The notes beneath the pieces are model-generated. The model ran no database searches and was not told where the DNA came from. It worked only from the letters and a program-made list of their open reading frames with translations. DNA of 64,000 bases from Siphonodentalium dalli (Eukaryota > Mollusca > Scaphopoda > Gadilida > Siphonodentaliidae): positions 75,170,705 to 75,234,704 of the forward strand of contig CP136067.1 in NCBI GenBank assembly GCA_032622095.1, read 5' to 3'. Shown piece by piece: positions 1,120-61,700 of the stretch. The position numbers and the translations under genes were made by a program. How positions within the stretch are numbered: position 1 is the first letter of the stretch; every line of letters begins with the position of its first letter.

Positions 1120-1218
1120 TTTTTTTTTCAAATGAAAAACAACAATAAAAAAAAGCGATTTCAAAATACGTGATTTTAAAAACGGCGCATAAAATCTCTT
1201 CCGCCTTTGTACTTGCGA

Positions 1219-6042: not shown

Positions 6043-6129
6043 AGTGTGTTTTGAGATGTGTTTTATCTCAACTCGTTAGAAGTATGATACTTCTAATTCA
6101 TTGAGATAAAACACATCTCAAAACACACT
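6043..6129. repeat. Hairpin with 29-bp perfect arms
   Basis: Bases 6043-6071 and 6101-6129 are exact reverse complements. The loop contains a second small hairpin, TTAGAAGTA/TACTTCTAA, at about 6076-6096. Probably a tiny MITE. Confidence 0.85.
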
Positions 6130-6717: not shown

Positions 6718-6930
6718 TCAAACACCGAGGAAATGACTTAATTTTATGCTTTTAAATAGTTCTAAAGCATCATTTTTGATGACGACCTTATTTTTTGCTC
6801 TCGGGTGCAGCTTTCCCGTTGATGCAGCGAGTTCATCTCCCGAAAAAGAATAGTCGCACACACGACAAATATTATCTTCTGTAAGTTTATGTCGCGACAC
6901 AGGCCTTCTATGGGTTGATGAGTCGGCCAT
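6718..6930 (-). CDS. Unidentified 70-residue exon with a CxxC motif
   Basis: From the ATG at 6930 a 70-residue frame runs to a stop at 6718. It is polar and protein-like, with an Asn-Ile-Cys-Arg-Val-Cys stretch near residues 20-25 that could be half of a zinc site, then a Lys-rich part. I do not recognise the family. A possible splice donor (CTCG|GTGTTT) falls just before the stop, so this may be a first exon, as with the THAP exon at 901-1119. The in-frame ATG at 6975 adds a hydrophobic lead but the more soluble start at 6930 fits the CRE-type site 70 bases upstream. No repeat was seen inside it. It could still be a chance frame. Confidence 0.3.
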   Translation of the reverse strand: MADSSTHRRPVSRHKLTEDNICRVCDYSFSGDELAASTGKLHPRAKNKVVIKNDALELFKSIKLSHFLGV

Positions 6931-7000
6931 TGTTATTGCGAAGCACAACAAATAACACGTGGGGACACCTGTCAATCATCGATGTATTTTTAAAAATCCG

Positions 7001-7008
7001 TGACGTCA
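7001..7008. promoter_or_regulatory. CRE-like TGACGTCA site
   Basis: Perfect TGACGTCA palindrome about 70 bases upstream of the candidate minus-strand exon start at 6930. Function inferred from position. Confidence 0.35.
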
Positions 7009-7009
7009 T

Positions 7010-17399: not shown

Positions 17400-17618
17400 C
17401 TTTCTCGGTTGCTGATTGGATCTTCTCTTGAATAAATTAGAATATAGACAGATATCTAATGAGGTCAGATGTCTCCAGGCAACTTATTCCAGATGCATGC
17501 TATGCTTTGAAGATCGCTTATTGTTCAACAGTCCTGCACAAACTTTAGGATATTGGTACCGCAGATGCAGTGACCCGGTGATGCTGACATTATTTTCACA
17601 CCTGTAAAGAGACAGAAT

Positions 17619-24163: not shown

Positions 24164-24632
24164 TCACGTTCGTGACTAAAATGTCGACGTCATGCTCCAA
24201 AAACTGACTTCTTTTATAAATCAACTTATCATGAATTCCACGAAAAAGCGGCCATGGATACCGATAATGGGTATTTGCATCATAAGCATGTCATCGGGGA
24301 ATGTTGTTGCTTCTTCTGTATTTCATTATTACTATCCAATGAATATATTTTGGAATGGTCATTGCCCTCACTATACAATCTCTTAAACACCAGATATTGT
24401 GTGACTGGGGATCAATGATGCGCGCATGCGCAGTCAACGCATATTTTCATATTTTGCCAAATAAGGTCAAATGAACCAAAATATCATTTTCAAGCAGCTC
24501 AAGGGTCATTCTAGGTTAATAGTGAGGCATGTGTGGAAATGTTATTTTTGTCACATTTCCCATATCACAATCTGCCTCAATTACCATAGTATCCCCTTTT
24601 TGCACATATATTTTAGTTAAATGACGATTTAA

Positions 24633-25224
24633 AGGGGTACTGTACGCCATTTTCAATAAATTCCCGGTGATAACAACGATCTATTATCGATACTATATAG
24701 AAATATAAGTAATTTGAGTCGAAGATGTATTCTGTAAACGCTCAGGTTAATAGGCTATCTTAAAATTTAATAATTTAAAAGTTAATAATTTAATATAAAT
24801 TGATTTTATGGCTCCAGCCATAAAATGGCGTCTCTTAAAATTGGAATGTCCGTGTACAAAACGTAATCAAATTATAATTGAGGGATACTGGATTAATAAA
24901 ACAATTGCACACACGATCGTTTGAAACATTATGCTTATACGGGGAGAAAACCCAAGCCACTCATTGACTAGTGGCCATACACTAACTTAAATGAGTATAT
25001 GGGACTACTAAGCATATAATATAATGTTTATTTGATTCATTTGATTGAAAACTGTACAAAAATTACTCGACAACGACAATTTGTATTTTTGCATTCCGGT
25101 AAATTTGCCATCCGTAACAATACTTCGTACTCAACAGACTTTCAAAAAATGGAAAAGTTGTTACCTTATTCTCCGACTCGGGGATTATAGAAACCAACAA
25201 CAACATCTTGGGTACAGTACCCCT
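24633..25224 (+). mobile_element. 592-bp TTAA-flanked MITE, copy 1
   Basis: The inverted ends AGGGGTACTGTACG / GGGTACAGTACCCCT are flanked by TTAA at 24,629-24,632 and 25,225-25,228. Length is exactly 592 bp, equal to copy 2 at 40,625-41,216, which lies in the opposite orientation and is nearly identical. A frame of 40-odd codons is shared by the two copies but has no domain. TTAA targets suggest mobilisation by a piggyBac-type transposase. Confidence 0.9.
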
Positions 25225-25437
25225 TTAACCCCTATATACCAATAGGCCTAACCCGTTTCTAAGGTAAAAACAGTCGCATAGCAACCGTTGCCATGGAAAG
25301 TATTTTCGTGATTGCCCCCATATTTGAAAATAATACGTGGGACCTAATATACACATGTGCCAAGTTTTATGCTTTTATGACAATGTCCGCACTTGTTACA
25401 CAAAAAACTATAGGGCCTACCTAAAAAAAATCGCACG

Positions 25438-28485: not shown

Positions 28486-29635
28486 TATTCGGGACTAATC
28501 GCAGATACTATCGACGAAACGTCTATATATATCTTCGATTACCGCGCCCTGACGTGCCGACCTCCATTCAGATACTTGAAGTGACTCGATGAATGTGATG
28601 GAGTATGCTTACCAAAATGTTTGTATGTATACGCGCAGAATTGGGACGATTCCTGGTAATACATGCATGACGCGATTATACAACAATTCAAGTATATGTA
28701 AAAAGTTTCTAATTCTCCAGCTGGGTCTTTGATACATGATGCATAAATCAAATCACTTGACAAATGCGTCGATATCATTATGCAATGACTTATATGGTAA
28801 ATATAGACCGGCCCCCAGATGAGGGTAGTGTCACACGAAAGGGTAGAAATTTTGACGCTATCTCCAATTATCCTTGCCCCATGTGGGTTCCAAAACACTG
28901 AGGTATCCAGGGCGGAGCAGGTGGAAAATATATTTTTTTGGACCTTTTTGGTGTTTTTGACCTGCAAATTTCAGTATAATCAGGAAAACCAATAAAATAA
29001 GACAAATGTTGAATAAAATATACTTGAATATCAGATATTTATTCTATCTGGGTTGCTTAACATTTATGATGTGCAAAAAGTTATATTATCCAACATTTTT
29101 TGTGAAAAATTCACGAAAATCAGCGAAAATGCCAAAAAATTGCATAAATTGCAGTGCTCTTTCAAAAAAGTTTTCCAGAAGATTTCCTATAAAATTTTAA
29201 TTTTTTTTATATAAAGCTTTCATTGGTACATCAAAATTTTCAGCATTATATACCTGATTTATTAATATCAACATCACAAGCAATGATATCCAACAGCCGA
29301 GATATTTCCAAAAACTTAACCCACCTCCCCCCCCCCCCCCCCAAAACTGATTTTCTATCTGAAAATACCTGTCAAGTCAGAATAGCACGTGAAATGCTAT
29401 AATCATGTACCAGACCAGAATTAAGAAATAAAGTAAAACTTAACTCTACCCCAATATAGTGTTCTAAATGATTTCAATTTTATGCTATACTAAACTCGAA
29501 AGGTCGTTCATACTAGTTGATAGAATTCATATCATAAATTGCAATAATTCTGCCCACGGATTATGCAATCTCATCTGTGGTTGAGTTGGTAACGGTTGCA
29601 AGTCTCCACTGCTTTGCTATCATGTTGGCTTGTTT

Positions 29636-29995
29636 TTAGTGTAGAATTAAAGATTCCTCACATGGTGGAAGTGCAGAAAGATCAAGTACATGTACCTTCT
29701 GCTGATTCTCGAACTTCTGCTGGAACATTATCCGCCTAGCTTTATTCACTTTTCTCGAACGTTGACCATATAAGGCACATTCTAACTCCTCGAGTGTAGT
29801 AAGCGTGTCACTGTCCAAAACCCAATTCGTTCCTAAATATGCCATGACTTTCATATATTTTAATTGTCTTTCCAGCAACTTCCTGACAAGTTTTTTTTCC
29901 ATTTTTGGAAGGTAACCATTACCCGTGAAGGAATGGAACACAATAAGTGCATTCTTCTGTACATTTGACATCTCGATATCACTGACTTGAATCAC
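29636..29995 (-). pseudogene. Left-arm copy of the FHxFTG-family gene fragment
   Basis: An open frame of 119 residues contains IVFHSFTGNGY (near 18-28), MAYLGTNWVLDSD (51-63), a CALYG(Q) stretch and LPPCEESLILH at the end. These elements occur in this order in the family. It is the reverse-oriented partner of 32,390-32,935. Product function unknown; it is a fragment without start context or C-terminal part. Confidence 0.6.
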
Positions 29996-30139
29996 CTGCC
30001 CATTAGCATCAAAATTTATTATCTATCATCAGGGGGAAATCATTTAACGTTTCCTCCATCGTGCATAAACGCCATCAAGATGGAGAACTCTCTGACATGA
30101 CCTCTCTATCAATTAATATATCGTTGAGTTATTGTGGAA

Positions 30140-31660
30140 AGCAATAGCAACCCAATGCACACATGTACAACCAACCCAGTAACATACAGTCACTCCATAT
30201 ATACACATAAACACCACACAAATGACAAGATAGTCACTCACTCTATACACATACACCTGACCCATGACCATATAGTCACTCCCTGTATACTCTTCACCTA
30301 TTTCATTATCATAAGTCAATCCATGTATGCATATTCATCTCACCATTGGCCATACGGTCAATCCCCGTATACCTATTCGCCATGGCCAAAATAGCCATTC
30401 AAGATAAACATAAACACCCCATCCATGACCATAGAGTCACTCCATGTATACATGTGCGTCTCACCATTGGCCATCCCTGATCCATGACCATGTATATCCA
30501 CACTCGTGTATACCTGTACACCCCACACATGCCCATACAGCCATGCACACATGCAGGCACACTAGGTATACTCATACACCTTACCCATGACCATATAGTC
30601 ACCCCCTGTGTACATATTCAACACATCCATGATCATACAGTCAATAATTGTATACCTATTCACGTCATCATTGGTCGTAGGTCACTCGCTGTATACATGT
30701 TCACCAAAACCATGGCAAAATAGCCACGCAAGTTATACATATACTCCCAACCATGACCATAGAATCACACCAGGTAAACATATGCATCTCACTAATGGCG
30801 ATATAGCCACTCACTTTATACACATACCTCTCCATAACCATACAGCCACACTTGTGTACACCCTTACACCCTACACATGACCATACAGCCATGCAGGCAC
30901 ACCAGGTATACTCCTACATCCGACCCATGACCATATACATGTAGTCACTCCCTGTATACCTATTCACCACATTCATGATCATACATTCACTCCTTGTATA
31001 CCTGTTCACCTCACCATTGGCCATAGTCACTCCCTGAAAACATATTCACCTCACTATTGGCCATAGAGTCACTCACGGTAACATATATGCCACGTCAATA
31101 GTCATATAGCCACTCGATATATGCATATACATCCACACATGACCATCCACACGCTTGTCAATGACCATTCAGCATACACCAGGTACACATATACACATGA
31201 CTACTGCCATTCCATGTACACATGTACGCATTACACATAGATGCACATCGATTTATCGTTTCACCCCACCCATGATCATACAGACAACACATGTATACAT
31301 GTATATACATATACACCTACCTGTGACAATACAGCCACACAAGGTAAACCTGTGCATCCCACCGGCACCCATGACAATACAGTCACTCCATATATACATA
31401 AACACACATAATTATGACCATGTAGGTACTCTCGTTATTTACATAAACCACAGCAATGCCCATTGAGCCACATTGTGTACACCTGTACTGGGTAGTCATA
31501 ACCATACAACCATAGTCACTCCTTGTATACCTATATTCACCTCACACATAACCATACACTCACTCCTTGCATACCTATACATCTCACCATGCCCACCCCT
31601 TGCATGACCATATAGCTAATCATGTACACATATTTACATCATTCATGACCATACAATAAC
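30140..31660 (+). repeat. Degenerate minisatellite, unit ~36-45 bp
   Basis: Around 35 diverged units of the type TGACCATATAGTCACTCC, CTGTATACCTATTCACC, TCACCCA, all in one orientation. Neighbouring starts in the part I measured (30,264-30,470) are 36-44 bases apart. The Thr/His-rich reading frames here arise from the repeat. Confidence 0.85.
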
Positions 31661-32389
31661 TCCCCATTTATAAAAAAATATATATAGCCAGTATCCAAAA
31701 AGAGGTTCTCGGAAAAAAAACAGATAAGGCAACTTTAAAATTAATTTGTTATGGGACAACCAGAATAGAACATTTAGATCGGCCTCTCGTTTTGTTATCC
31801 CACATGATACGCTCCGAACGAACACAAGCCATAGCTTGTCCCAAATTGATTGTATGTATATTATACCAGAAAATGAAAAATGAAAAAAAAACCCAGATAT
31901 TAAGGCAACTTTAAAATTAATTTGTTATGGGACAACCAAAATAGAACATTTAGTTGTCAGTTGATTAGCTAACATGTAAAATAACCAAGTGAGTCACAAT
32001 TTGCTACATTTTTGGAAACGCAGAGAATAATGTTCGGGATATATGTAAAAAATGGTTGCCATTTTGGAAGCCATTTTGAGTAATTTGGTTTATAAACACA
32101 TTAGTGTGACATATTTAAGGTAGATCAAAACAATAAACGCCTTTCATACCAAACATAGTTACATTTTACTTGAAATTGTTTGTGCCATTATTTATGTCCA
32201 GTTTGTGAGAGAAAAATCAAACATTTCTGGTAATGTCAGTGGTGACAATAATAAAAATTAACTAAGTTAGTGTTCAATGTATAGAAGGCAGAATAGCCAA
32301 TTTTATACATCAACCACAACTTGTAAGCGATTGCGGGACACGCTGGGTCAATATCTACCATTTCCACATTTTGGCAGCCAAATACACAG

Positions 32390-32935
32390 AAGAATGCAGT
32401 TGTTGGGTTCCATTCCTTCACAGTAATAATTACCTTTCATCGTTGTTCCGAAAAGGAAAAAACCACTTTGGACGTTGCTGGAAAGACCATCAAGATAATA
32501 TGGAAGTCATGGCTTATTTAGGAACGAATTGGGTTTTGGACAGTGACACGCTTAATACAATCAAGGAGTTAACATGTGCCTTATACATGTTTGGTCCACA
32601 TTCGAGAAAAGTGAATTAAGCTAGGTGGGTAAAGTTCCAGCAGAAGTTCGAGAATCAGCAAAAGGTAGTTGATCTTTCTGCACTTCCACCATGTGAGGAA
32701 TCTTTAATTCTACACTCAAAACGAACCAATATGATAGCAAAACAGTGGAGACTTGCAACCGTTGCCAAATCAACCACTCCCGGTGTAGCATTTCATGGAT
32801 GGACGGTCGATAGCAGCCTGAGTTGTTTGAACCATTCTTCCTGTAAGATGCTGCACAGAAATTCTATTGACTGATACCATCACATTTGATGAATTGACAG
32901 TGACAGTGAAGATGAGATTACATAATCTGTGGGCA
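32390..32935 (+). pseudogene. Right-arm copy of the FHxFTG-family gene fragment
   Basis: Coding relic with frameshifts: a GFHSFT start near 32,405, then SSLFRKGK, MAYLGTNWVLDSD at about 32,510, a CALY stretch, SRKVN and a stop, then LPPCEESLILHSKRTN at about 32,686 and a downstream HGW and acidic DSDSEDE-like stretch at about 32,900. It keeps more of the C-terminal part than the left-arm copy. Shifts and stops show it is dead. Confidence 0.6.
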
Positions 32936-33984
32936 GAACTATTGCAATTTATGATATGAATTCTATCAACTAGTATGAACGACCTTTCGAGTTTAGTATA
33001 GCATAAAATTGAAAGCATTGAGAACACTATCTTGGGGTAGGGTTAAGTTTTACTTTATTTCTTAATTCTGGTCTGGTACATGACTATAGCATTTCATGTC
33101 TGATATTGGGGAAGAATTTATGCTTATTGTGGTACATGTTGTGCAGCTGTATCCATAAAACTGACAATGTCATGGGAATTTTTCATAAAATTTTCACTTA
33201 AAAATAATCAAACTTTTAGCCAATTTACCCCCAAAAAATCAAATATTTAAACAAAATAGACTCTACCATAACATAAACCTTCCAATTCCATGATATATGA
33301 TAAGAGTCTGAATTGGTTAACAAAACGGAATGAAAACGGGCTATTCTGACTTGACCAGACTTGACAGGTATTTTCAGATAGAAAATCAGTTTTAGGGGGA
33401 TGGGTTAAGTTTTTGGAAATATCTTGGCTTATTGGATATCATTGTTTGTGATGTTGATATTAATAAATCAGGTATATAATGCAGAAAATTTTGATGCACC
33501 AATGAGAGCTTTATATAAAAATTTATAGGAAATCTTCTGGAAAACTATTTTGAAAAAGCACTGCAATTTATGCATTTTTTTTTGGCATTTTCATGAATTT
33601 TTCACAAAAATTGTTGGATAATATAACTTTTTGCACATCATAAATGTTAAGCAACCCAGATAGAATAAATATCTGATATTCAAGTATATTTTATTCAACA
33701 TTTGTCTTATTTTATTGGTTTTCCTGATTATACTGAAATTTGCAGGTCAAAAACACCAAAAAGGTCCAAAAAAATATTTTTTCCACCTGCTCCGCCCTGG
33801 ATACCTCAGTGTTTTGGAACCCACATGGGGCAAGGATAATTGGAGATAGCGTCAAAATTTCTACCCTTTCGTATGACACTACCCTCATCTGGGGGCCGGT
33901 CTAGTATAGTTTGTTTAAAACAAGTATACGAAATGGAGCCACACAATTGCGATACGCGTTCTAATGATGCGTGAATTCTATTTA

Positions 33985-38797: not shown

Positions 38798-41700
38798 TTG
38801 AAATTTTTATGTTTAAATGTATTTGGTCTTTGCCGCAAAATGAAATGTCCTGAATTCTGTCGCCTTCTTGGTGGTTATTACATTATCGAACTAAATGAAA
38901 CCCGAACGGACGATGAAGAAATTTTCATAAATCGTAATAAGATAAACTAATGTCAAGTCTGGTGGTTTGTGCATTATGGTTAAAGCCGATTTTAACTCGC
39001 GAACCGGGCACTTGAGTGATCTCCCCGACTGTGATGACATCCCTGTCCCGCGTGAACTGTGTTGATTGATAGAGTTACTGCGCTTGCATTGTGTTGCTAT
39101 GAGAGATACTCGCACGAACGAACGGTCAATTCATGCGGTCGACTAGTGTGAATTATGAATGGACGAATTGGAAGGGACAAGTTTGCTGGTAAGGTAACAT
39201 CCATAAGGGCGTCAATTTGATTGATTACTTTATTTCTTCAATTGACTTATTTGTATATGCATGTGATCTTGATGTTTTACCGTTTCAATCCCTGTTAACT
39301 ACCAGATTCTCATTCTGGCGTAGAATTGATATTAAAATGCCCAGTAGATAGAAATATTAATATAACTACTTCAAATAAAACAAATAAATTTAAAGCCGGT
39401 GTAGAACCTGAATTCAAGCTTTGGTCAGAGTCACAGAGCATACAGTACATACAGTGTATCGATAATACCCAACTACTTGAATTAAAGGACCAACTTGATT
39501 TGTATAGCAACTCATCTGATGAGTATAATAGAGACTCAAATAATATAATAGCTAAGAACATACAAATTCTTTTTCCTTCAGCATGTCAGAAAAGATTTGG
39601 TAAAAAACGTAATTCAAATATGCAGAAAAACTATAAACACTGGTTTAACTCAAAGTGTAGAAGAGCCAGGGCGAAGTGCCATAAAATAAAGAACAGTTAT
39701 CGTAAGAATCCAACCAATAAGAATTTGGAGGAAATGCGACACACTAGTCGAGAATACAATAACACTATTCAAAGTAGTAGCCCTAAGAACTATAAGAAAA
39801 TGTTTGCACAACGATTAAAAATCACCAGGGAATCTGACCCAAAGGTGTACTGGAGATTGTTGAAAACAGAGTTCAATCAAAAGATCAAACAAAAGTAGAT
39901 ATTGAAAATATGTATACTTTCTTGACAAATAATAATCTTGAATCAAATGACGATTTCATATTAATAGAAAACATGCGGAATCAACAAAATGACGACTTAG
40001 ATACACCCATTTCTGAAAATGACATCTTAAATGCTAAGAAATTGCAATAGTTGTGTATCAGATCTATACGTGAAATGGTTTAACCTCATTTTTTATACAG
40101 GAAACATACCAGCCGAATGGCTCATAGGAATAGTAGTACCCATCTACAAGAATAAAGGTGACGAAACCATGTCTGAAAAGTATCGACCCATAACGGTTAT
40201 AAATGAGTTGTCTTGGGAAAGTTTTTACTAAAATTCTGAACAGTAGAATGATCAGATACGCAGAATCGAAAGACCTTGTAGACAAGAACCAAGCAGGGTT
40301 TCGAAAGGGTTTTTCTACATTTGACCACATAATGACACTTCATTTGTTATCAAGCATATACAGTGTATAAGCACTTCAATCGTAAACTGTATTGCATATT
40401 CGTCGATTTTAAACAAGCCTTTGACACGGTATGGAGACCAGAACTTTGGTATAAATTGATTTCCCCGGAAATAACGGGCAAATGTTTTAGTTCATTGAAA
40501 ATATGTACAGCCGAGTCAAATCCGTGGTTAAAATCGATGGATGTCTCTCAAATACATACGCGTGTACTTCTGGTGTGTTGCAGGGAGAAAATATTTCTTC
40601 TTTCCTATTTTTACTCTACCTTAAAGGGGTACTGTACCCAAGATGTTGTTGTTGGTTTCTATAATCCCCGAGTCGGAGAATAATGTAACAACTTTTCAAT
40701 TTTTTGAAAGTTTGTTGAGTACGAAGTATTGTTACGGATGGCAAATTTACCGGAATGCAAAAATACAAATTGTCGTTGTCGAGTAATTTTTGTAAAGTTT
40801 TCAACCAAATGAATCAAATAAACATTATATTATATGGTTAGTAGTCCCATATACTCATTTAAGTTAGTGTACCGTCACTAGTCAATGAATGGCTTGGGTT
40901 TTCTCCCCGTATAAGCATAATGTTTCAAACGATCGTGTGTGCAATTGTTTTCCTAATCCGGTATCCCTCAATTATAATTTGATTACGTTTTGTACACGGA
41001 AATTCGAATTTTAAGAGACGCCATTTTATGGCTGGAGCCATAAAATCAATTTATATTAAATTATTAACTTTTAAATTATTAAATTTTAAGATAGCCTATT
41101 AACCTGAGCGTTTACAGAATACATCTTCGACTCAAATTACTTATATTTCTATATAGTATCGATAATAGATCGTTGTTATCACCGGGAATTTATTGAAAAT
41201 GGCGTACAGTACCCCTTTAACGATCTACAACAATTTTTGATGACAAACTCCGCACAAGGACTTGGTGTGATAGAAAATCTGATTGAAGATGAGTTAGGAA
41301 TCTATATTAAATTGATTGTGCTTCTATATCCCGATGATATGGTTATATTTGCCGATTCTATGAAACAAATGAGACGAAACTTTAAATATTTTTTCAGATT
41401 ATTGTTCATTTTGGAAACTTACTGATAATATAACAAAAACGAAAAATGATGGTACTTGGCTCAGGGCGCAAACCAAAAACTCGTCTCTCCCTAAATGGTA
41501 ACCTCGTGGAAGCAGTAAACGAATATACATATCTGGGAATACCTTTATCGAAGGCGAACAATTTTAGTAAAGCTCGAAAACACATACTTGCTAAAGCAAC
41601 TGGTGCCATGCATGTATAGCTTGATTTATAAATCACGGGAAATGAATATCCCCAATTGCACAACAGATTGACTGACCTGTTTGGGAAGGTATAGTTAAAC

Positions 41701-46309: not shown

Positions 46310-46879
46310 GGCACAACCAGTACATATACATGTAAGTTGCTTGGAGTACTCAAAATTCGTTTATTTTATTTCACCATCAGTTCAATTAAAACCACCTGCC
46401 TCTGAGTTACAAGACGAAATGTGGGGAAAGGGCAAAATGGTAAGGTCAGGGGTAAATGTTGAAAAGACAGAATAGTCTTGTCGATAAAAGTTTTGACCTA
46501 GAAAATACTTGGACTAAGTTGGTTTTTATTCCATTTTGAAGAGGAATAATAATCATATCCTCTATAACATATCCAAAATCCGATAAATCCGCTTAGAGCA
46601 AAATTTTCTATTCAAAATGGCATCCATGATGACAATTGGTATTGAAAAATTCTGACTTTCTGTGATATGTGGCATTATGCATGTGCACCAACTATCACCA
46701 AGTTAGTAATAAAATGAAATATACACAAACAATGCTTTGTCGTAAACCATATAATTATGTAGAATGTCTGTCCAAAAATGGCCATATCCCACCTGTTACC
46801 CCATGTGATATTGGAATAGTTAGAAAATAGACATGACAAATAACACAAAAAAACAGCGTCTTCACCATCGGTTTCAAGA

Positions 46880-47050
46880 GTAGAATAGGATTAAATTTGT
46901 TTTTAAATATTTTCCTCAAAATGTGTTTACATTGTTTACACGCCGTTCCCATGACACAACTTTTAAATTATACAGTAGTGCGGAACATAAAGCTCACATC
47001 TTCTACTTTCATATAATACCTAATTTTTCCGTGTGTTAAAAAAAGATATA
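46880..47050. repeat. Diverged relic of the giant element II arm
   Basis: GTGTTTACATTGTTTACA, GCGGAACATAAAGC, TCTTCTACTTTCATATAATA and AATTTTTCCGTGTGT follow the order found at 57,770-57,890. This is a separate older copy of part of that arm. Confidence 0.6.
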
Positions 47051-48280
47051 GTCAAAACCATTCATCCAAGCAGATAATTAACACCGTTCCAAAGTCACGC
47101 GCGTGTGTACACACTCTCCCCGTCTGGCTATCTTGTTTCCAGTTGATTTCAACATATACACATGCAATGGACGGATCTACGTAAATTGTGAAAAAAAAAC
47201 TATATGGATATATACTTAGCTAGATCATATCATGATCTCTACCCTGACTATATATACGCCCGTAGAGATAATTCTACACAGTTCAAATAATGTGAAATTT
47301 TTCATGTTCTGATAGGGAAGTTTATAAACAATTAAACAAAAAACAGTGCAGCTAATATATTCTTAGTTAATGTCATTCCTCGGTAAATACTGTATTCCAC
47401 AGTGTATGTAGGTCACGAAGATCCCAGCTCGATGTTCCATGAAATATGTCACTTTGTTGAGTCGGGTAATCAATTCAATGTTTATTTCGATGTCGACTCA
47501 CAAAAGTCACAGACAAATCATGCAATCTGGGGTTGTGACCACCCCTATTGTGAAATATATTACTGTGTTGTTTGTTCAATGCTATAAAGTTCTCCGTCAG
47601 AATATTAAAAAGTTCTCATATTTTTAACGGGTTAAATATGATCTCCACGGTAGCCAGAGTATAAAATTCATGACATGATCTAATACTTGGCGACCCATTC
47701 CTATATTCTATAAGAGAGAAATATGTTCAGCATATACTACAAATCATGGAATTCACTACGATAATGATGTTGGGTTGAAATTTAAATACAAATGCATCTC
47801 AACATATTAATTACTTATTATATAAGTAATATTATGTTCCTTTCCGAACCCCCTCCCCCAAATCGCAGCATCGCCACGTCTCTGATAAATGCAGAATGAC
47901 CGTCCTATCGTTGCATTCTTGTCAACTGAGACCATTGTTCTCGCAGGGTCACTTACGATCAAATTGAAACACCTTTATCGCGTACCGAAAACTATAGAGA
48001 CGCCGGGGAAGCTTATTTACGAATACACCCGGAAATCCTCGGCTGTTGTCGGTGGTTGCATCATCCAAAATGGCTGGTTGTTTTGTTTCAAATGTTCGGG
48101 TTCCGAACATTGCGTTTTTGTTGTAATTTTTATGACTTGAATGCGTCTTTTTGGGACTTATATTGGTCGTAGACGGGTAGTTTGGGGCATTTATCTACCT
48201 ATTTTGATACCGGGAAAATTTCAAAAGCGAATATTATTTTGTGTATTTTGGAGCGAAACCGCCATGTGGCTTTAAACTAA
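47051..48280. other. No gene recognised
   Basis: No domain or splice-bounded exon found. Short open frames at 47,402-47,587 and 47,889-48,140 have no recognisable content. Confidence 0.35.
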
Positions 48281-49000: not shown

Positions 49001-49599
49001 ATTTTATATTCCACTATTAACATCTGATTTTTCAGAAATCCGAATAATACCGCCACAAGTTTCGATAGCGGGTATCGATACATAACGCGCTAGTTAAAGT
49101 GACATAATTCACCAGTGAAATTATCGTTTATTATCACATTATCACTCGAGAATCAAGGTATCGCACATAGGAATGCAATATATATCTTTTATTTGTGGTA
49201 GCCTTCCCCACATTCCCGTGAACATCCCTGTCATACAGAGTTGGTTGGATTAAAAATTAAATAGACACCTATTGTAAACGTGTTTATTACCCAAACAAAT
49301 ATGTACATAGATGTTACATTAACAAATTAATATCTGGCAGGGAGCAGTATGATACAGATACCACCTTATGCACGACGTCGTCCATTTATTACGAAGATCC
49401 TGGTGGAACAGTTCATGAATTCTGGGTCTTTTTTTGAAACCGGTATAAGCTTGACAATATGTTTATAGATATATATGTATATATGTACATGTTTTGCGAC
49501 GATGGAACCGCCATTACATGAGGAAAATCATTCTCCATTTGTATGAGCTCCATACTTGGGTATAGACTTATGGGCGCCGTTCTTCTATTTATTACCTAT

Positions 49600-50975
49600 T
49601 TTGTGATATGAATAATTCATTTTGTGATATCAGAAAATGAATATATGATATCACAAAATCGAATATATGATATCATAAATTGTAAGCATTTAGTGATATC
49701 ACATTTTCGATTTTATGAAATCATATATTCATTTTGTGATATCACTTATTTGAATTTGAGATATTATCATATATTCATTTTGTGATTAAAAGACTATTTA
49801 TTGACATCACTAAATGCATTTAGTGATATCATAAAATATTTATTGATATCATAAAAGAATTTATGATATAACAAAATCTAATTATTATCACTAAATGCTA
49901 TTCGATTTTGATATCTTGAATTCATTTTATGATATCACTAATTCGAATTAGTGATATCATATATTCATACATAATAGTTAATTTATATCACATAGCCGTT
50001 CTTCTATTTTTTTTTTTTATACATATTTAGTGATAATATGATTATACGTAAACGTAATTTGCGCCCGCTTGTTACTCTTCATGTGATTATCGGATGAATT
50101 TTTATCTTTCGAAAGATTTGATGATAAACCCTAACGGGACACAAGAAAATTATATATGTAAATTATCACATATAACGTAAATGTGGATGTTTAACCTGCC
50201 CGTGTAATACGAGTCTCAACTGTCTGGCAATCGACGCAGCCCTGTCTGTAAGTTTGTGCGGCGATGTAGGTTGTGACGTCATGATGTACGTCTTGATGTC
50301 ATGACGCCTTTACTGGTTTCCCAAGAAGCAATCTTAAAATGACTCTGTGATCTTTCAATCGGAACTTATAGTTTCCGTTTGTCGGCCTTGAACTTTGCGA
50401 ATATTTCTTCAATCTTTTAGGAGGAAATACCGTTAGAAAATGGAAGATCGAATCTAAACGACCAGTAAGGCCACTAGAATCCTCTTTCGGGGCAAATAAT
50501 TTTTAATAATTTTATAAAATATGCGAAACTTTTTCATGCAATTTCAGTTTTTGTTAACCAGGGCTTTGGTTTAAGTTACATTCAATCTTTTAAATATCTT
50601 TGGCTTTAGGAGCATGGTGTTCCTACGTATGATGAAGTATAGCTAACATTTACCGGAACAAAGATTGTTTTTGTCCTGGAGCATTTTGCCCAATTACACA
50701 TTTCGAGGTGGTATTAATCAATACAAAATGGCGGCCGTCGCCAACAATAATTTTTTCGACTCGGCTGACCCTTGAGTTATGAATAAATTATTTTATTTTA
50801 GGTATGTTCAATCTATTTTTAGATTGGGCTGAAAAAGTCGATTAGTATATCTCATATCCGTATACGAATACCCTAGGTAGTTTCGCTTCCGCGGGAAGCC
50901 GCGGGCACTATAAATAATTCATTTTATGATATCACTAAATGAATATATGATATCGCAAAATCGAATATATGATAC
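49600..50975. repeat. Left GTGATATCAC palindrome cluster
   Basis: Many copies of (T)GATATCA(C) embedded in AAAATCGAATATATGATATCAC-like units, dense at 49,600-49,990 and recurring at 50,920-50,975. Between them (50,040-50,900) no gene or repeat was recognised, apart from TGACGTCA at 50,274. Confidence 0.75.
50274..50281. promoter_or_regulatory. CRE-like TGACGTCA site
   Basis: Perfect TGACGTCA inside element II; a second occurs at 51,421-51,428. No gene adjacent. Confidence 0.25.
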
Positions 50976-51417
50976 ATGAATCGTTACAAACACATTGTGT
51001 ATATAACACATTTATCTACCATTGGTGCGACAGAATCCACCGCACAAATTACATTTTAGGAGTTTCTTAAATGCCAAAAACTGTTGAATTTATGTCCGAC
51101 GATTGGCTTTCTTGAGTAAATTCTCCCAACATGCAAAGGTATCTGTGTCACGCGATTAGCTCGCTTTACTAAATTCTCACAACTTGCAAGTTCACGCACG
51201 CGAATATGCCTAACGGAAATTGTATTCAATGGACAAATCTCGTACACTTATAATAAATACTGAACAAATACATATTAGTTACTTTGTGATATGTTATACC
51301 ATAATACCCATAATGGTAGCCTGGAAGGCAATCAAATAATGTTAAAACCTTGGAACTATTTCGTTATAGTACGCAAGACTATACGTTGGAATGTCGTTTT
51401 GATTATCCACGCGATTG

Positions 51418-52560
51418 ATGTGACGTCATAGATGAGCGGTCTTGGCCCCAACGGGGCTTATTTTTCGAGTTTAATTTTTTTCTTTACACACGGAAAAATT
51501 ATACATCATATGAAAGTAGAAGATGTAGGCTTCATGTTCCGCCCTGCTGTAAAATGTGAAAGTGGTGCCGTTGCCATGGAAACAGAATGTAAACAATGTA
51601 GACACAGTTTGATATTAAACCATTTCCGCAAATGGTAAAAACTAATTTAAGCCCATTCTATGACAGGAACAGACGTTGACGATCATTTATTGACGAATTG
51701 TCCACTATAACTATGTTCCAACGATTCCAGTATTAAATAGGATGCACATATAGGTTATACGGGTCTTTATTGCCATTTTGGGGTGAAAAATGGTGATTTT
51801 TTCCAAAAATGCGATAATTTTGGAATTGAAACATTTATTGAATACTACACTGGTTACAATAATAATTTATGCATTATTATGATGGCATCATACGTGTACT
51901 TAAAATTAATTTGGATAAAACTGCCGAAAAGGCCCAATACCAAGAGAAATACCTGTTACCATGGAAACGATATTTAAAAATACAAAAAATGCCGTTATTG
52001 GAAAGAAATGAAGACCTATAACCCTTGCGACACAATATAACTTTTTGAAATTTGTTTTTTATGACATGCACTTTTAATCCGGACTTCTGTGTTGGGTAAT
52101 TGATGCAGTTTATTCTGCTGTTGTCATGGAAACGGACCAAATTTCGCCAAATAATGATGTTTTTTTCCCATAGAGCTGACATTTAAAGCATGTAATTTTA
52201 TGAAACAAAGCGTATTATGACAACCCGTTATAGATGTCTCAAAACCTTTTTCAAAGATTACTATTTCCCAATTATCCCAGTAGTAGCTAGGATGCACATA
52301 TAGGATATTAAGGTTTTATTGCCATTTTGGGGTAAAAACTGTAATTTTTTGCAAAAAATGCGATAATTTTGGAATTGAAACATTTATTTGATACTACATT
52401 GGTTACAGTAATAATTTATACATATTATGATGGCTTCTTACGTGTGCTTCAATCTAGTTTTGATAAAACTGCACAAAAAGCCCAATACCCTGAGAAATAC
52501 CTATCACCATGGAAACGATATTAAAAAATACACAAAATTTCATTATTGGAAAGAAATGAA
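51418..52560. repeat. Left inner arm of element II, internally duplicated
   Basis: Two ~550-bp direct units begin at AGGATGCACATATAGG (51,739 and 52,289) and contain CATTTTGGGGT, AATTTTGGAATTGAAAC and CCATGGAAACGATATT. The whole is the reverse complement of 56,780-57,975. The 100-codon frame at 51,877-52,182 is not a gene: it recurs only because the repeat does. Confidence 0.85.
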
Positions 52561-52744
52561 GTTCTGTACTTACTCAGAATAACGGCATAACAAGTTCCTG
52601 GAATATATCACATCCGAACCCCTTTGGGTCAAATGTGGACATGCATGATTAAAATGGGTCAGGCAGTGTGATGATAGTGAGGATTGCTATGCAAATGCGG
52701 TGATATGGTATACCATAGCTGCCTTATGTCAAGCTCAGGCAATA

Positions 52745-55597
52745 TATCCGGTTAATATATCAATATATGTGGTTAGTTAGTCAATAGATGCAGCCTCTTT
52801 GCAATTATATTTGGCTACTTTGTCAATATTGGAGGTTAGTTAGTCAATATATGCAGATAATATGTCAATATATGTGGTTAGTTAAGTCAATATATGCAGC
52901 TACTTTGCAAATATATGCAGCTACGTTTCCAATATATGTGGTTAGTTGGTCAATACTTTGTCCATTAATTTGGTTAGTTAGTCAATATATGTAGCAAATT
53001 AGTCAATATATTCGGTTAGTTAGTCATTATATGCAGTTTCTTTGTCAATAAATGTGGTAAGTTAGTCAATATATACATCTATTTTGCCAAAATGTGCAAT
53101 TGCATTGACAATATATCCAGCTACTTTATCAATATATATATATATATATGATTAGTTAGTCATTGTATGCAGCTGCTTAGTCAATATATGTGGTTAGTTA
53201 GTCATTATATGCAACTACTTAGTCAATATTTGTGGTCAGTTAGTCATTATAGGCATCTGCATTGTCAATATATGCGGTTAGTTAGTCATTATATGAAGCT
53301 ACTTAGTCAATATATGTGGTCAGTTAGTCATTATATGCAGCTACTTAGTCAATATGTGTGGTCAGTTAGTCATTATATGCAACTACTTAGTCAATATATG
53401 CGGTTAGTTAGTCATTATATGCAGCTAATTAGTCAATATTTGTGGTCAGTTAGTCATTATAGGCATCTACATTGTCAATATATGCAGTTAGTTAGTCAGT
53501 ATATGCAGCTAATTAGTCAATATATGTGGTCAGTTAGTCATTATATGCATCTACTTAGTCAATATATGCGGTCAGTTAGTCATTATATGCAACTACTTAG
53601 TCAATATATGCGGTTAGTTAGTCATTATATGCAGCTAATTAGTCAATATTTGTGGTCAGTTAGTCATTATAGGCATCTACATTGTCAATATATGCAGTTA
53701 GTTAGTCAGTATATGCAGCTAATTAGTCAATATATGTGGTCAGTTAGTCATTATATGCAGCTACTTAGTCAATATATGCGATCAGTTAGTCATTATATGC
53801 AGCTACTTAGTCAATATATGCGGTTAGTTAGTCATTATATGCAACTACTTAGTCAATATATCCGGTTAATATATCAATATATGTGGTTAGTTAGTCAATA
53901 GATGCAGCCTCTTTGCAATTATATTTGGCTACTTTGTCAATATTGGAGGTTAGTTAGTCAATATATGCAGATAATTTGTCAATATATGTGGTTAGTTAAG
54001 TCAATATATGCAGCTACTTTGCAACTATATGCAATATATTCAAATATATGTGGTTAGTTGGTCAATACTTTGGCCATTAATTTGGTTAGTTAGTCAACAT
54101 ATGTAGCAAATTAATCAATATATGCGGTTAGTTAGTCAATATATGTTTGTTAGTTAGTCATTATATGCAGTTACTTAGTCAATATATGTGTCAGTTAGTC
54201 ATTATATGGAGCTACTTAGTCAATATATGTGGTCAGTTAGTCATTATATGCAGCTACTTAGTCAATATATGCGATCAGTTAGTCATTATATGCAGCTACT
54301 TAGTCAATATATGCGGTTAGTTAGTCATTATATGCAACTACTTAGTCAATATATGTGGTCAGTTAGTCATTATATGCAACTACTTAGTCAATATATGTGG
54401 TCAGTTATTCATTATATGCAACTACTTAGTCAATATATGCGGTTAGTTAGTCATTATATGCAGCTAATTAGTCAATATATATGGTCAGTTAGTCATTATA
54501 TGCAGCCAATTGGTCAATATATGCGACCAGTTAGTCATTATATGCAGCTACTTAGTCAATATATGCGGTTAGTTAGTCATTATATTCAACTACTAAGTCA
54601 ATATTTGTGGTCAGTTAGTCATTATATTCATCTACTTAGTCAATATATGCGGTCAGTTAGTCATTACATGCAACTACTTAGTCAATATATGCGGTTAGTT
54701 AGTCATTATATGCAGCCAATTAGTCAATATATATGGTCAGTTAGTCATTATATGCAACTACTTAGTCAATATATGCGGTTAGTTAGTCATTATATGCAAC
54801 TACTAAGTCAATATTTGTGGTCAGTTAGTCATTATATTCATCTACTTAGTCAATATATGCGGTCAGTTAGTCATTACATGCAACTACTTAGTCAATATAT
54901 GCGGTTAGTTAGTCATTATATGCAGCTAATTAGTCAATATATATGGTCAGTTAGTCATTATATGCAGCTAATTGGTCAATATATGCGATCAGTAAGTCAT
55001 TATATGCAGCTACTTAGTCAATATATGCGGTTAGTTAGTCATTATATGCAACTACTTAGTCAATATTTGTGGTCAGTTAGTCATTATATTCATCTACTTA
55101 GTCAATATATGCGGTCAGTTAGTCATTATATGCAACTAATTAGTCAATATTTGGTCAGTTAGTTATATGCAGCTACTTGGTCAATATATGCGGTCAGTTA
55201 GTCATTATATGCGGCTACTTAGTCAATATATGCGGATAGTTAGTCATTATATGCAGCTACTTAGTCAATATAAGCAGTTAGTCATTATGTGTAGATACTT
55301 AGTCAACGTGTGTGGTTAGTTAGTCATTATATGCAGTTACTCAGTCAATATATAAAGTCAGTTAGTCATTATATGCAGCTAATTAGTCAATATGTGTGGT
55401 CAGTTAGTCATTATAGGCATCTACATTGTCAATATATGCAGTTAGTCAGTCATTATATGCAACTACTTAGTCAATGTATGTGATCAGTTAGTCATTATAT
55501 TTTGCTACTTAGTCAATATATGCGGTTAGATAGTCATTATATGCAGCTACTTTGTCAATATATGTGGTCAGTTTGTCATTATATTCAGCTACTTAGA
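52745..55597 (+). repeat. 42-bp satellite, forward array
   Basis: Around 65-70 units built from two ~21-bp half-units: AGTCAATATATGTGGTCAGT and TAGTCATTATATGCAGCTACT. A segment at 52,745-53,170 recurs diverged at 53,858-54,190, showing block duplication. Because 42 is divisible by three, long open frames (53,167-53,901 and 54,188-55,162) appear with a 14-residue period. Confidence 0.95.
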
Positions 55598-56118
55598 CAA
55601 AGTAGATGCATATATTGACTAACTAACCGCATTTATTAACTAATGATCTACACATAATGACTAACTAACCACATTTATTGACTAAGTAGCTGCATATAAT
55701 GACTAACTAACTGTATATATTGACTAAGTAGCTGCATATAATGACTAACTGACCACATATATTGACTAAGTAGCTGCATATAATGACTAACTGACACATA
55801 TTTTGACTAAGTAACTGCATATAATGACTAACTAACAAACATATATTGACTAACTAACCGCATATATTGACTAATTTGCTACATATATTGACTAACCAAA
55901 TTAATAGCCAAAGTATTGACCAACTAACCACATATATTGGAATATATTGCATATATTTGCAAAGTAGCTGCATATATTGACTTAACTAACCACATATATT
56001 GACAAATTATCTGCATATATTGACTAACTAACCTCCAATATTGACAAAGTAGCCAAATATAATTGCAAAGAGGCTGCATCTATTGACTAACTAACCACAT
56101 ATATTGATATATTAACCG
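55598..56118 (-). repeat. 42-bp satellite, inverted array
   Basis: About 12 units of the same satellite in reverse orientation. The switch is at CTACTTAGACAAAGTAG (55,589-55,605). The far end repeats the special units of 52,745-52,990 in reverse (CCGGTTAATATATCAATATA). Confidence 0.92.
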
Positions 56119-57975
56119 GATGTATTGCCTGAGGTTGACATAAGGCAGCTATGGCGTACCATATCACCGCATTTGCATAGCAATCCTCACTATTATCACA
56201 CTGCCTGACCCATTTTAATCATGCAGGTCTACATTTGACCCAAAGGGGTTCGGATGTGATATATTCCAGGAACTTGTTATGCCGTTATTCTGAGTAAGTA
56301 CAGGTAATTACTATTTAGGGATGTAGCTTATAATCATCAACTATTTGCTTTCAAATCAGTTTCATAATTCCCAGACAGCGAATCTTTTAAAATCCTATCA
56401 TGGCATTTTCCAGATACGTGGTGTTGGTTTTTAAACATACCCGTAATTTTTCACACAATTTCCAATAATAAAAAAAATTGTGCAAAACACATCACTATTT
56501 AGACAATTTTCTTCTAGATCCACAGAAACAGCTGAGAAATTGGGAATAAAATGATCAAAACACGTGGACTCTGAGTCTGATGAGTACCATGTCAGGGTGC
56601 GTTCACATAATGGTAAATGTGTCTGGCAAACCTGCAGGAAAGTCGTCTTAGGGGTGCTCTTATCCCCTATTGTATTATATATATGAGTTGAAGATTTTGA
56701 AATACCTATAACAGGTTGTTACAATATGTTTTGCTTTATAAAATTCACAATTTAAATGTCCAGTTTATAGGGGAAAAATTCATTATTCATTATTCAAAAA
56801 GTTAATTTGTGTCGCAATGGTCATTTCTTTCCAATAATGAATTTTTTTTTTTAAATATCATTTCCATGGCGATAGGTATTTCTCAGGGTATTGGGCTTTC
56901 TGCAGTTTTATCAAAACTAGATTGAAGCACACGTAAGAAGCCATCATAATATGTTTAAATTATTACTGTAACCAATGTAGTATCAAATAAATGTTTCAAT
57001 TCCAAAATTATCGCATTTTTTGCAAAAATTAACAGTTTTTACCCCAAAATGGCAATAAAACCTTCATATCCTATATGTGCATCCTAGCTACTACTGGTAT
57101 AATTGGGAAATAGTAATCTTTGAAAAAGGTTTTGAGACATCTATAACGGGTTGTCATAATACGCTTTGCTTCATAAAATTACATGCTTTAAATGTCAGCT
57201 CTATGGGGAAAAAACATCATTATTTGGTGATATTTGGTCCGTTTCCATGGCAACAGCTGAATAAACCGCATCAATTACCCAACACAGAAGTCCGGATTAA
57301 AAGTGCAATTCATAAAAAACAAATTTCAAAAAGTTATATTGTGTCGCAAGGGTTATAGGTCTTCATTTCTTTCCAATAACGGCATTTTTTGTATTTTTAA
57401 ATATCGTTTCCATGGTAACAGGTATTTCTCTTGGTATTGGGCCTTTTCGGCAGTTTTATCTAAATTAATTTTAAGTACACGTATGATGCCATCATAATAA
57501 TGCATAAATTATTACTGTAACCAATGTAGTATTCAATACATGTTCCAATTCCAAAATTATCGCATTTTTTTGCAAAAATCACCATTTTTAACCCAAAATG
57601 GCAATAAAGACCCGTATAACCTATATGTGCATCCTATTTAATACTGGAATCGTTGGAACATAGTTATATGGACAAATCATCAACAAATGATCTTCAACGT
57701 CTGTTCCTGTCCTAGAATGGGCTTAAATTAGTTTTTGCCATTTGCGGAAATGGTTTAATATCAAACTGTGTCTACATTGTTTACATTCTGTTTCCATGGC
57801 AACGGCACCACTTTCACATTTTACAGCAGGGCGGAACATGAAGCCTACATCTTCTACTTTCATATGATATATAATTTTTCCGTGTGTAAAAGAAAAAATT
57901 AAAAAAAAAAAATTCTGGTCAATACCGCTCCTCTACGTCAGTTCATTCATGATTTTGAACCAGTCAACGACGTCA
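56119..57975. repeat. Right inner arm of element II
   Basis: Reverse complement of the left arm: AAGGCAGCTATGG near 56,140, two diverged ~550-bp units around 56,690-57,100 and 57,120-57,660, and CCGTGTGTAAAAGAAAAAATT near 57,890. The stretch 56,310-56,690 has no visible left-arm partner. Confidence 0.8.
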
Positions 57976-58079
57976 CGAGCGTCTTGTATCGCAACTGCAG
58001 TAACGATACGGATGCTTTTATCGCCAATTCGTTATCGCCAATTGTATCAGGGAATTTCGTAGGAAATGGTAGATAAAAT

Positions 58080-59590
58080 TAAATATTTTATGATATCACA
58101 AAATGGTTTTAAGATTTCACTAATTCCAATTTGTGATATCATACATTAATTTTTGGATATCACAAAATTGAATTATTGATATCACAAAATAGTAAGTATT
58201 TAGTTATATATCAATAATTCGATTTTGTGATATTATAAACTGTTGGGGAATTAGTGATATCACAGACTGATTTTAATATATCACAAAATGGAATTAGTGA
58301 TATAATAAATTCATTTTGTGATATCACAAAATCGAATATATGATATCACAAAAATAAGTAAGCATTTAGTGATATCAATAATTCGATTTTATGATACCAT
58401 AAAATGATATAATATTATCACAAACTGTTGAAGGAATAGTTGTCCAGCTGCCATTTTCTATTTATGGACATTACAACAAGAATTAGTCATATCACACATT
58501 CAGTTTTATGATATCACAAAATGAATTTATGATTTCACAAATTAGAATTAGTGATATCACTAAATGCTTACTATATGGTGATATCAATAATTCGATTTTG
58601 GGATGTCAAAAAATGAATTTATAATATCACAATTTGGAATTAGTGATATCTTAAAATCATTATGTGATACATGTATCATAACATATTTAATAATATCATA
58701 TATTCGATTTTGTGATATCATATATTCGATTTTGTGATATCACAAAAGAACGGCGCCCCATCTAGACTGATTAACTCAGAGCTAAAAGTTAGTGAACATG
58801 GCTGTCTCAATCGGATGTAAAAATATTTTGTGCATGTTTGGTCATGGTGGGTCCCTCAAATTTTCATATACAAAAACGATATACCTTCCAGTACTTTGCA
58901 GCTTGACATATAGTAACTATAGATTTTCATTGCTATAAATTATCTTGTCATATGTCGAAACTGCTGGATATTCAAACATAAATTAGACTAATTTGATATA
59001 TAGTAACTATAGATTTTCATTGTTACAAATTGTCTTGTCATAATATGACATTTTATGTCTTCGATGTTATCTCTAAAGAGTACGCATCCACACAATTCTA
59101 GAATATAGAAAGATACTATACGTATTGGCTTAACATTCAGATGGTCGCAGAAAGAGCTAACATTGATTGTTTTCATTCCTCAAAATGAACTTACAGGCTC
59201 TGAAAGGTCTTCGAGACCCCATATTATTAACCGATCGCAGGCATTTCTGATCCATCACCAATGCAGTGGAGGAAATGTAGTTTTTGAATCATAGTTGTTC
59301 TCGAATTGTGCGATTTTATGATATCATAAAATGATTTAATAATATAAACAAACTGTTGAAGGAATAGTAGTGCAGCTGCCATCTTCTATTTATGGACATC
59401 ACAAAAAGAATTAGTCATATCATAAATTAAATTTTATGATATCACAAAATGAATTTATGATTTCACAAATTAGAATTAGTGATATCACTAAATTCTTACT
59501 ATATGGTGATATCACAACATATTTAATAATATCATATATTCGATTTTGTGATATCATATATTCATTATGTGATATCACAAAAGAACGGCG
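58080..59590. repeat. Right GTGATATCAC palindrome clusters, duplicated end
   Basis: Two clusters (58,080-58,745 and 59,300-59,585) of the GATATCAC units end alike in AAAGAACGGCGCCCCATCTAG and are followed by the same flank (CTGTCTCAATCGGATGTAAA, TTTTGTGCATGTTTGGT). The right end plus its flank has therefore been duplicated (about 58,440-58,890 and 59,345-59,740). Confidence 0.8.
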
Positions 59591-60094
59591 CCCCATCTAG
59601 ACTGATTAACTCACAGCTAGAAGATCGTGAACATTGGGGGGGGGGCTGTCTCAATCGGATGTAAAAATATTTTGTGCATGTTTGGTGATGGTGGGTCCCT
59701 TAAATTTTCATATACTAAAACATTATTTCGTATCATATCATGGCGTAATGTACCCGGGCCACTATACTATACACATATTCACGAGTTTTACACACATGTA
59801 ATTGTATGTATTTTTATATACATTGTGCCAATTCCAGTTTCACGTTCTTTGTTTCTGGACACATATTATAGGCAACTCGCCACTCCGTGTATATCCTATA
59901 ACCCATACTGTTGCCGTCAACTGTCTGTGTGCAGCGAACTGTGCCTTTCTCCTTGGAGTTTCACGTCAGTAAGTTTTAACGTTATCTACATGTCTTCCAG
60001 AATGAGCTAGGTAGCGGCAGGTCTGTTTTGAATATTATGTCGCAAGAGACGCTCAACGAACATTAACACAGAAAAACCAAATCCGCGTTTGCGC

Positions 60095-60786
60095 CTAAGA
60101 CTTCCGTGATTTTCTGTCCTCGTTTCGTCTGTGCAAAATGGAGAACAATCGAAAGTTTCTATAAAAAGGACCACTCTGGCTCCAGTGTCGGTGCCGTCTG
60201 TTACTGAGTCCACGTGAGTTCACAAGTTCAATAAATGCTGATTCATTTTTGTATAACTCATCTTGCCTCGGAATGTACGTGAGTGTATTCGATGTTAGCG
60301 CCTGGTATTTTCTTCGTCGATGTTTTCCGCCCAGTCTCTTTAAATGCTTCTTATGTCTGCGGTTTCCACGGGTTTGCTTTCTCCACCATTTGCGACCTCT
60401 TTTCTTATGTTTCTTCCCTCTCTTTCTGTGCTTTCTTCGCCTCACTTTGATCCCTTGATTGTCGATAAATATAGGTTTCCGTTGTGGCGTCATAGGTACA
60501 AGAACGGTTGCCGTCGGCGCCGCGTATAATGCCAAAGGCTCGTTCGATTCCCCTCCAGCGCTGTGAGGAAGTGCCAGAAGTTTACCGGAGTCAGCCAGTG
60601 TTGTAATCACAGCTGTGCCACATCCCTTTTCGCACAACTCTCTTGTCCTGAAATTGTTTCTGTTTCCCTTGCAACCTCCATAGTGAAACCACGTGCACTT
60701 TCCGGAATGTTTGTTGAAGTACCAGCGTCTGAATCGGGCCCGACATCCGCCAGGGGACGGTGGCATTTCACACACATTCGTCATTG
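60095..60786 (-). CDS. Kunitz (BPTI-type) inhibitor gene, last exon with basic tail
   Basis: A TTATATTTCAG acceptor precedes the exon start at 60,786 (phase 1). In the open frame counted from 60,808 the six Kunitz cysteines are 13, 22, 38, 46, 59 and 63, with spacing 8-15-7-12-3 as in BPTI. The WFHYGGC and NNF signatures are present, and Arg23 at the P1 position predicts inhibition of trypsin-like serine proteases. After the domain comes a Pro/Ala-rich linker and a tail at 123-169 with about 28 Lys/Arg in 46 residues, then a Ser/Arg-rich end and stop. The tail could bind acidic polymers, such as extracellular or mineral matrix, but this is inference. The upstream exon at 61,701-61,806 joins in frame. 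The signal-peptide exon was not found. Six cysteines intact; no damage visible. Confidence 0.88.
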
Positions 60787-61700
60787 CTGAAATATAAGGA
60801 CATAACATGCTATAGCTTGGGAAAATCCAAAAGATAATGCATGTCTTGGAGTTTGCTATATGTCAAAATAGTGGTCCGAGAAGAGGAATAGTATAATATT
60901 CATCACCGAGGACCACGATTTTGGCATAGTCCAAGACAAGACTTGCGTTGTTTATTATATGATATCGAACACTGATGGTAATTGTCACAAACTTTCTGGG
61001 TCCAATGTTTTTTATTTGCCGCGAATTTTGATAACGGTTTTCATGCAGATTTTACAATCTGCAGATTTTACAATCTGCGACAATCGGTTGTGGCGACGAC
61101 AGGACAATATAATTATGTTGTTAGTTAGACTTTTCCACAAAAAATGAGAAGCCAGATGGTCTATATTGGATGTAAAACTGAAAAGTAAGTTACACCCTTC
61201 ACTCAAAAGTTAGGACAAGATGATTACCAAACTAAAATGACTGAAACTATTTAAATACCCGGAGAACTCAGGTCGGACACAGGATCATACAAAATAATTC
61301 AATCCAAAGCTCACAATCAGCATTTTAGAGGTTTGTAATTCAAAATATGCAGATATAGCTTCCCATGGCAAATTCCTGAAAATGCGACCCAAGAGGGGAC
61401 ATTTGAGAAAGCCATGTGTATCAACATCATGTGTGTGTATATCTTATACTATATTGGTACGATTACGCGCCTCTTATCATGGTTGTGGTGAAGCCTCTAG
61501 GTTATTGGGTCAAATTACATGTATTTGCCATACACAGCAGCCAGCTGGGGAGATTTCCGCGTGCAAAAATCGAGGAATAGTTTGTCTTTTAGTGGATGTC
61601 GATATAACAGGACGTCGTGCCCAGAGCGATACCATTGTGTGTGTCTTGTTTACCGATGTTTGATATTAGAAGGTATATTCTCATTCCACATATAAAATAC

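Follow-up and report, generated by a model that had tools for sequence, protein, structure and literature searches.

The window analysed here is a stretch of 64,000 nucleotides from the scaphopod mollusc Siphonodentalium dalli (assembly GCA_032622095.1, contig CP136067.1, positions 75,170,705 to 75,234,704 of the forward strand), and it harbours a complete foldback element. The initial annotation had described a 9-kb palindromic unit with GGCGCC ends at positions 49572-58759. The mirror structure proved real, yet these bounds did not hold, and the element occupies positions 51429-57935. Its components are listed in Table 1, together with the other features of the window.

Table 1. Features of the focal element, its surroundings and the remainder of the window.
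Feature	Position	Strand	Remark
Complete non-autonomous foldback element, 6,507 bp	51429..57935	+	Edges common to other copies, flanks differ
Left terminal motif TAGATGAGCGGTCTTGGCC	51429..51447	+	
Right terminal motif TAGAGGAGCGGTATTGACC	57917..57935	-	Commonest form in other copies is TAGAGGAGCGGTCTTGACC
Left arm, two ~550-bp repeat units	51429..52559	+	
Right arm	56821..57935	-	96.9% identical by substitutions to left arm
Third arm unit, ~520 bp	56304..56820	-	No left counterpart in focal copy
Left spacer, arm to satellite	52564..52735	+	Inverted match to right spacer, 97.0%
Right spacer	56135..56303	-	97.0% alike to left spacer
~42-bp satellite, long side, 2.9 kb	52740..55600	+	
~42-bp satellite, inverted short side, 0.5 kb	55609..56130	-	
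Conserved axis ACTTAGACAAAGTAGATGCATATATTGAC	55591..55619	+	Site of satellite strand switch
CGTCA, candidate 5-bp target repeat, left copy	51424..51428	+	Most copies have 3 bp
CGTCA, candidate 5-bp target repeat, right copy	57936..57940	+	
AT-rich palindromic TGATATCAC arrays	49591-49994, 58072-58747, 59311-59582		Right one is part of a dispersed family
Open reading frame with HlyIII (PAQR-like) domain	16380-17483	-	
Open reading frame with Kunitz domain	60095-60862	-	
Open reading frame with THAP domain	901-1365	-	Far from element

From the left, the element begins with the terminal motif TAGATGAGCGGTCTTGGCC, which is followed by a 1.1-kb arm composed of ~550-bp units, a 170-bp spacer and a ~42-bp satellite. 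A 29-bp axis word starts at position 55591, and beyond it the satellite, spacer and arm recur on the opposite strand up to the TAGAGGAGCGGTATTGACC end. The proposed mirror order around position 55597 is therefore borne out for arms, spacers and satellite; the position itself, however, marks a strand switch and not a centre of symmetry. The focal structure is asymmetrical, with 2.9 kb of satellite on the plus strand versus 0.5 kb on the minus strand, and with the third arm unit on the right only, a unit that several other members of the family possess on either side. Over positions 51475-52559 the inverted arms show 96.9% identity by substitutions, with 1034 matches against 16 transitions and 17 transversions, and seven indels of 1-9 bases each interrupt their alignment. 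For a partial arm copy at 46800-47065, a shared terminus was considered but not upheld, the alignment there being ambiguous.

The arms belong to a dispersed family. In a search of the host assembly (2,226,750,531 bases in nine contigs) with the left arm, at least 41 places including the focal one match at 95% identity or more (best 40 of 927 candidates scored). The junction between arm and flank lies at one common place in all 30 loci compared (L001-L030, L001 being the focal copy), and the arm starts with TAGATGAG in 29 of them, while L017 starts two bases later with CTCGATGAG. The opposite end reads TAGAGGAGCGGTCTTGACC and is followed by a T-rich run. The ends common to the family are TAGAKGAGCGGTCTTGRCC, with unrelated flanks beyond. 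Exact 19-bp ends occur 326 times genome-wide (reversed control, 0). Among the first 100 listed ends, all 27 pairs less than 20 kb apart face inward, none being same-strand or outward, and span 0.68-18.5 kb (median 6.0 kb). The family is dispersed across all nine contigs and includes short forms: L048 (1.29 kb) has two arms but no satellite, and L049 (0.68 kb) is made up of a left arm plus a short opposite end. The mean arm identity amounts to 97.6-97.9% between copies and 97.9% within a copy, which indicates that the family spread recently and that homogenisation between the arms of a copy is not clear. The focal arm pair is the least alike of those compared within copies (96.5%).

Three loci (L053-L055) were read from one end only. 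At L053 the inner sequence leaves the family after ~120 bp, and the 2.9 kb read contain no open reading frame (ORF) of at least 100 amino acids. Moreover, eleven same-strand right ends, spaced ~31-97 kb apart, and eleven axis words are found at C2:123.53-124.11 Mb; this array probably represents a segmental amplification that carries the element.

Target-site duplications (TSDs) were assessed in 12 complete long copies, namely the focal copy and 11 others from a fetched set of 15 stretches; L037, L040, L042 and L044 of that set were left out for want of a recognisable end pair. An exact 3-bp direct repeat lies outside the TA..TA termini in 10 of the 12 copies, a number never reached in 5000 permutations of the right flanks (maximum 7). 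Seven further copies of 0.68-8.65 kb all feature a 3-bp repeat. Target duplications in several copies, a check that the initial annotation had suggested, are thus present: 17 of the 19 complete copies tested have a 3-bp repeat directly adjoining both ends. The duplicated words include ATT, CAT, ATC, GTT and GAT, and an exact repeat of 6-10 bp was found in none of the 12 complete long copies. At the focal locus, the 6-bp word ACGTCA was rejected as target duplication, since other copies show 3 bp outside the TA..TA ends.

In all 12 complete long copies the satellite switches strand once, and each carries the exact 29-bp axis word ACTTAGACAAAGTAGATGCATATATTGAC, which has 103 exact matches over all nine contigs (control, 0). 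The orientation of the axis relative to the ends is focal-like in 11 of the 12 copies and flipped in L036, the 3-bp TSD of which is intact. The axis of L037 is also flipped, in a complex stretch with only one recognised end. Crossing-over between the inverted arms would be the simplest cause of a flipped core. Judged by the span of core words, the plus array is longer than the minus array in 11 of 12 copies, the exception being L036; L039 has a long satellite span with few core words, and other DNA may lie within it.

Common ends, dispersed copies and 3-bp target duplications corroborate the idea of a dispersed fold-back family, and positions 51429-57935 very probably represent a member of a foldback DNA transposon family that is non-autonomous and was recently active. 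The element is probably moved in trans by a putative transposase encoded elsewhere. Several points weigh against this assignment. The focal copy has a repeat of 5 bp (CGTCA) instead of 3 bp, and at least one 5-bp match arises among the 12 copies in 413 of 5000 permutations; the repeat of L031 comprises only 2 bp. Both ends could not be shown in 4 of the 15 stretches of the fetched set, the copy counts rest on exact words and on listings of the best candidates, and neither excision nor a polymorphic empty site was seen. Finally, a transposase with these ends was not found, no genome search being aimed at Zator, CACTA, Chapaev3 or Academ transposases.

The focal copy itself carries no visible transposase, as initially noted: its block contains no ORF of at least 110 amino acids (stop to stop) outside the satellite. 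A P-type transposase with a THAP domain was not seen in the copies read, a genome search for P transposases not having been made. In the 18.5-kb end pair L056 (C2), reverse-transcriptase-like ORFs were recognised by eye in 4 kb read mid-pair, and the interior is taken as a nested retroelement. Pattern scans of viral-contig and genome-contig collections yielded no matches, and Rfam and transfer RNA scans of the window were likewise negative.

Just outside the arms, the initial annotation saw further shells of one 9-kb unit. That the entire block of 49572-58759, with GGCGCC ends and TGATATCAC shells, forms one giant foldback element is suggested by the inverted occurrence of GGGCGCCGTTCTT at the two outer edges (0/1000 shuffles reach 13 bp), by TGATATCAC arrays on both sides (30 matches with at most one mismatch in the window versus 2.8 expected) and by TTTATCTACCATT, a marginal 13-bp inverted match just inside both arrays (2/300 shuffles, 3/320 window controls). 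Yet the inner element is delimited by ends and target repeats of its own, and CACAAAAGAACGGCGCC is present at only two places in the genome, both within the window; the second is a local duplicate, the right GGCGCC end being duplicated with ~137 bp of flank (58384-58877 and 59311-59721). Outside the arms, 50985-51431 and 57934-58072 align no better than chance (833/2000 shuffles score as high, and 81/480 unrelated window pieces equal the score). The focal flanks 49572-51428 and 57936-58760 have no match in 55 other fetched stretches (294,914 bases, E up to 1e-5), 29 of which include 1.5 kb of flank beyond the arm. The right TGATATCAC array (query 58560-58880) is a dispersed repeat in its own right, and among the best 40 of 995 candidates the listed matches outside the window stop at or near 58747, before GAACGGCGCC, apart from one weak match (79%) that extends to 58757. 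Since the stretches just outside the arms do not align beyond chance, the shells have no match in the 55 stretches and CACAAAAGAACGGCGCC is confined to the window, the outer layers are not part of the element. A giant element is accordingly exceedingly improbable: a 6.5-kb element lies between unrelated palindromic arrays, and the TGATATCAC and GGCGCC layers are independent neighbouring sequence. The outer inverted GGGCGCCGTTCTT pair is a local feature, and so is GCCGTTCTTCTATTT, a direct repeat of 15 bp that brackets the left TGATATCAC block (0/1000 shuffles).

An inverted segmental duplication, the alternative offered at the outset, or an assembly fold-over limited to the locus would produce arms and satellite that are mutual inverted copies, but explains neither dispersal nor target repeats; with axis words at 103 places on nine contigs, target repeats around complete copies, and arms that differ by 33 substitutions, seven indels and one whole unit, we regard it as hardly credible. 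It is equally implausible that chance brought two ordinary members of one satellite-bearing family together head to head. The arms are indeed a dispersed repeat, yet the pairing, the axis word and the single strand switch recur in 12/12 complete long copies, and one 3-bp target repeat encloses the pair in 10/12. Slightly less remote, though still very unlikely, is mobilisation of the family by a Crypton-type tyrosine recombinase. This notion derives from L046, where an intact gene of 586 amino acids (ORF 5668-7425; DUF3504, 8e-16; Phage_integrase, 2.1e-6) lies between the ends. However, a direct repeat of arm DNA, 131 bp long and identical at 130/131 positions, encloses the recombinase segment, whereas L046 has arms that are 82-83% alike. 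This points to a late nested insertion; the gene was rejected as autonomous partner and assigned to a nested Crypton. Among 25 recombinase genes or relatives on C1, C2 and C3 (the latter as far as 126.9 Mb) that were compared with 100 listed ends, only that of L046 is less than 20 kb from an end, the next nearest being 50 kb away. Independent copies with a recombinase at one place between the ends were not seen, and Cryptons are described without terminal inverted repeats (TIRs) in the part of the source drawn on here (PMC3212892). The recombinase has 32 other genome matches of at least 510 amino acids (92-98% identity, some with stops), and a structure search against PDB sequences gave no match. 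The segment 5346-8235 of L046 is a recent Crypton-like insertion with an unusually long bounding direct repeat (131 bp).

Apart from the foldback element, the window contains a second inverted structure at 28804-33903, the arms of which (28804-29967 and 33903-32379, with gaps) enclose a ~40-bp minisatellite (30180-31600), seemingly on one strand. The arm portion 28804-29378 is a dispersed repeat (91-95% in the best 40 of 1021 candidates); the listed matches omit the window's own second arm and are uninformative on pairing. A target repeat was not found for this structure. Two inverted copies at 24629-25228 and 40621-41220 are 97.5% identical without gaps, each with the inverted ends TTAAAGGGGTAC/GTACCCCTTTAA, and constitute an element resembling miniature inverted-repeat transposable elements; a ~85% relative is contained in L056.

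For the foldback family, we envisage that a transposase from elsewhere would bind both ends, possibly recognising TAGAKGAGCGG, excise the element and insert it into a target cut with a 3-bp stagger. The mirror axis may have arisen once before the family spread and would since have been passed on with each new copy. Recombination and slippage would later have altered arms and satellite, processes that could account for the variable length of the plus array, the short satellite-less forms and at least one copy with a core flipped relative to its ends. A more far-reaching proposal, which we put forward tentatively and consider rather doubtful, is that a transposase generating 3-bp TSDs, new to foldback elements, acts on a strand-switching core with a fixed axis word that can flip between the arms, each copy being a transposon and a dispersed satellite seed at once. 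The family is large and recent, combines 3-bp TSDs with a fixed axis and ranges from satellite-free forms of 0.68 kb to satellite-bearing forms of more than 6 kb. A single chromosome-scale assembly contains many near-identical copies, so that satellite growth and arm recombination can be traced directly.

Long TIRs with internal tandem repeats, dispersed copies, common ends and TSDs place the family in the foldback structural class. In the sections of three papers drawn on here (PMC4079207, PMC3573991, PMC3169594), foldback elements are linked with inversions and the birth of satellite DNA, and those described are mostly Mutator- or P-related with TSDs of 7-10 bp. As far as these sections go, the closest parallels are as follows. 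Tetris of Drosophila virilis (PMC4079207) is likewise non-autonomous, with long composite TIRs that comprise a flanking domain as well as internal tandem repeats of variable number, and its transposase was not found; it features ~220-bp repeats, TSDs of 8-10 bp and TIRs of up to 1,735 bp, unlike the ~42-bp satellite, the strand switch at a fixed axis and the 3-bp TSD of the present family. Galileo, a member of the P superfamily (PMC3573991), shares long TIRs of unequal length within a copy, the expansion of tandem repeats in the TIRs and forms reduced to two TIRs, but has 7-bp TSDs and, in some copies, a P-type transposase, neither of which was seen here. The Mutator/Foldback element Tm1 (PMC3169594) also has composite TIRs with tandem repeats, asymmetric terminal parts and a mean TIR identity of ~93%, but differs by 9-bp TSDs, ~14-bp repeats and a putative transposase in some members. 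TSDs of 8-10 bp, as in Mutator-related Foldback (FB, Tm1, Tetris), occur in none of the 12 complete long copies, and a TSD of 3 bp speaks against placing the family with Mutator-type Tm1 and Tetris (8-10 bp) or with Galileo (7 bp). Membership in Galileo, an analogue named initially, is thus unsupported, a transposase not having been found either.

Among other superfamilies, CACTA, Chapaev3 and Academ generate 3-bp TSDs, and the 3-bp form of Harbinger is TWA. Zator has 3-bp and Harbinger/PHIS 0-4 bp TSDs, according to the part of the source consulted (PMC10045372). The resemblance of the present family to Zator, Harbinger/PHIS, CACTA, Chapaev3 and Academ lies in TSD length; its TIR start, TAGAKGAG, and its mixed TSD words, including ATT, CAT, ATC, GTT and GAT rather than TWA alone, were not matched to any of them. 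Nor was a tyrosine recombinase of the element's own found, as would befit a Crypton, the L046 gene being nested. Literature text searches for foldback elements in molluscs (titles and abstract openings) and for foldback elements with 3-bp target sites retrieved no such family. Oyster Helentrons reportedly carry dispersed short satellite arrays and resemble the present family in that a mobile element spreads such arrays. To our knowledge, Helentrons lack true TIRs and TSDs, and the family described here differs from them in having both. Foldback architecture is already known from Foldback, Galileo and Tetris; what is unusual is the 3-bp target repeat, in a family not assigned to a superfamily.

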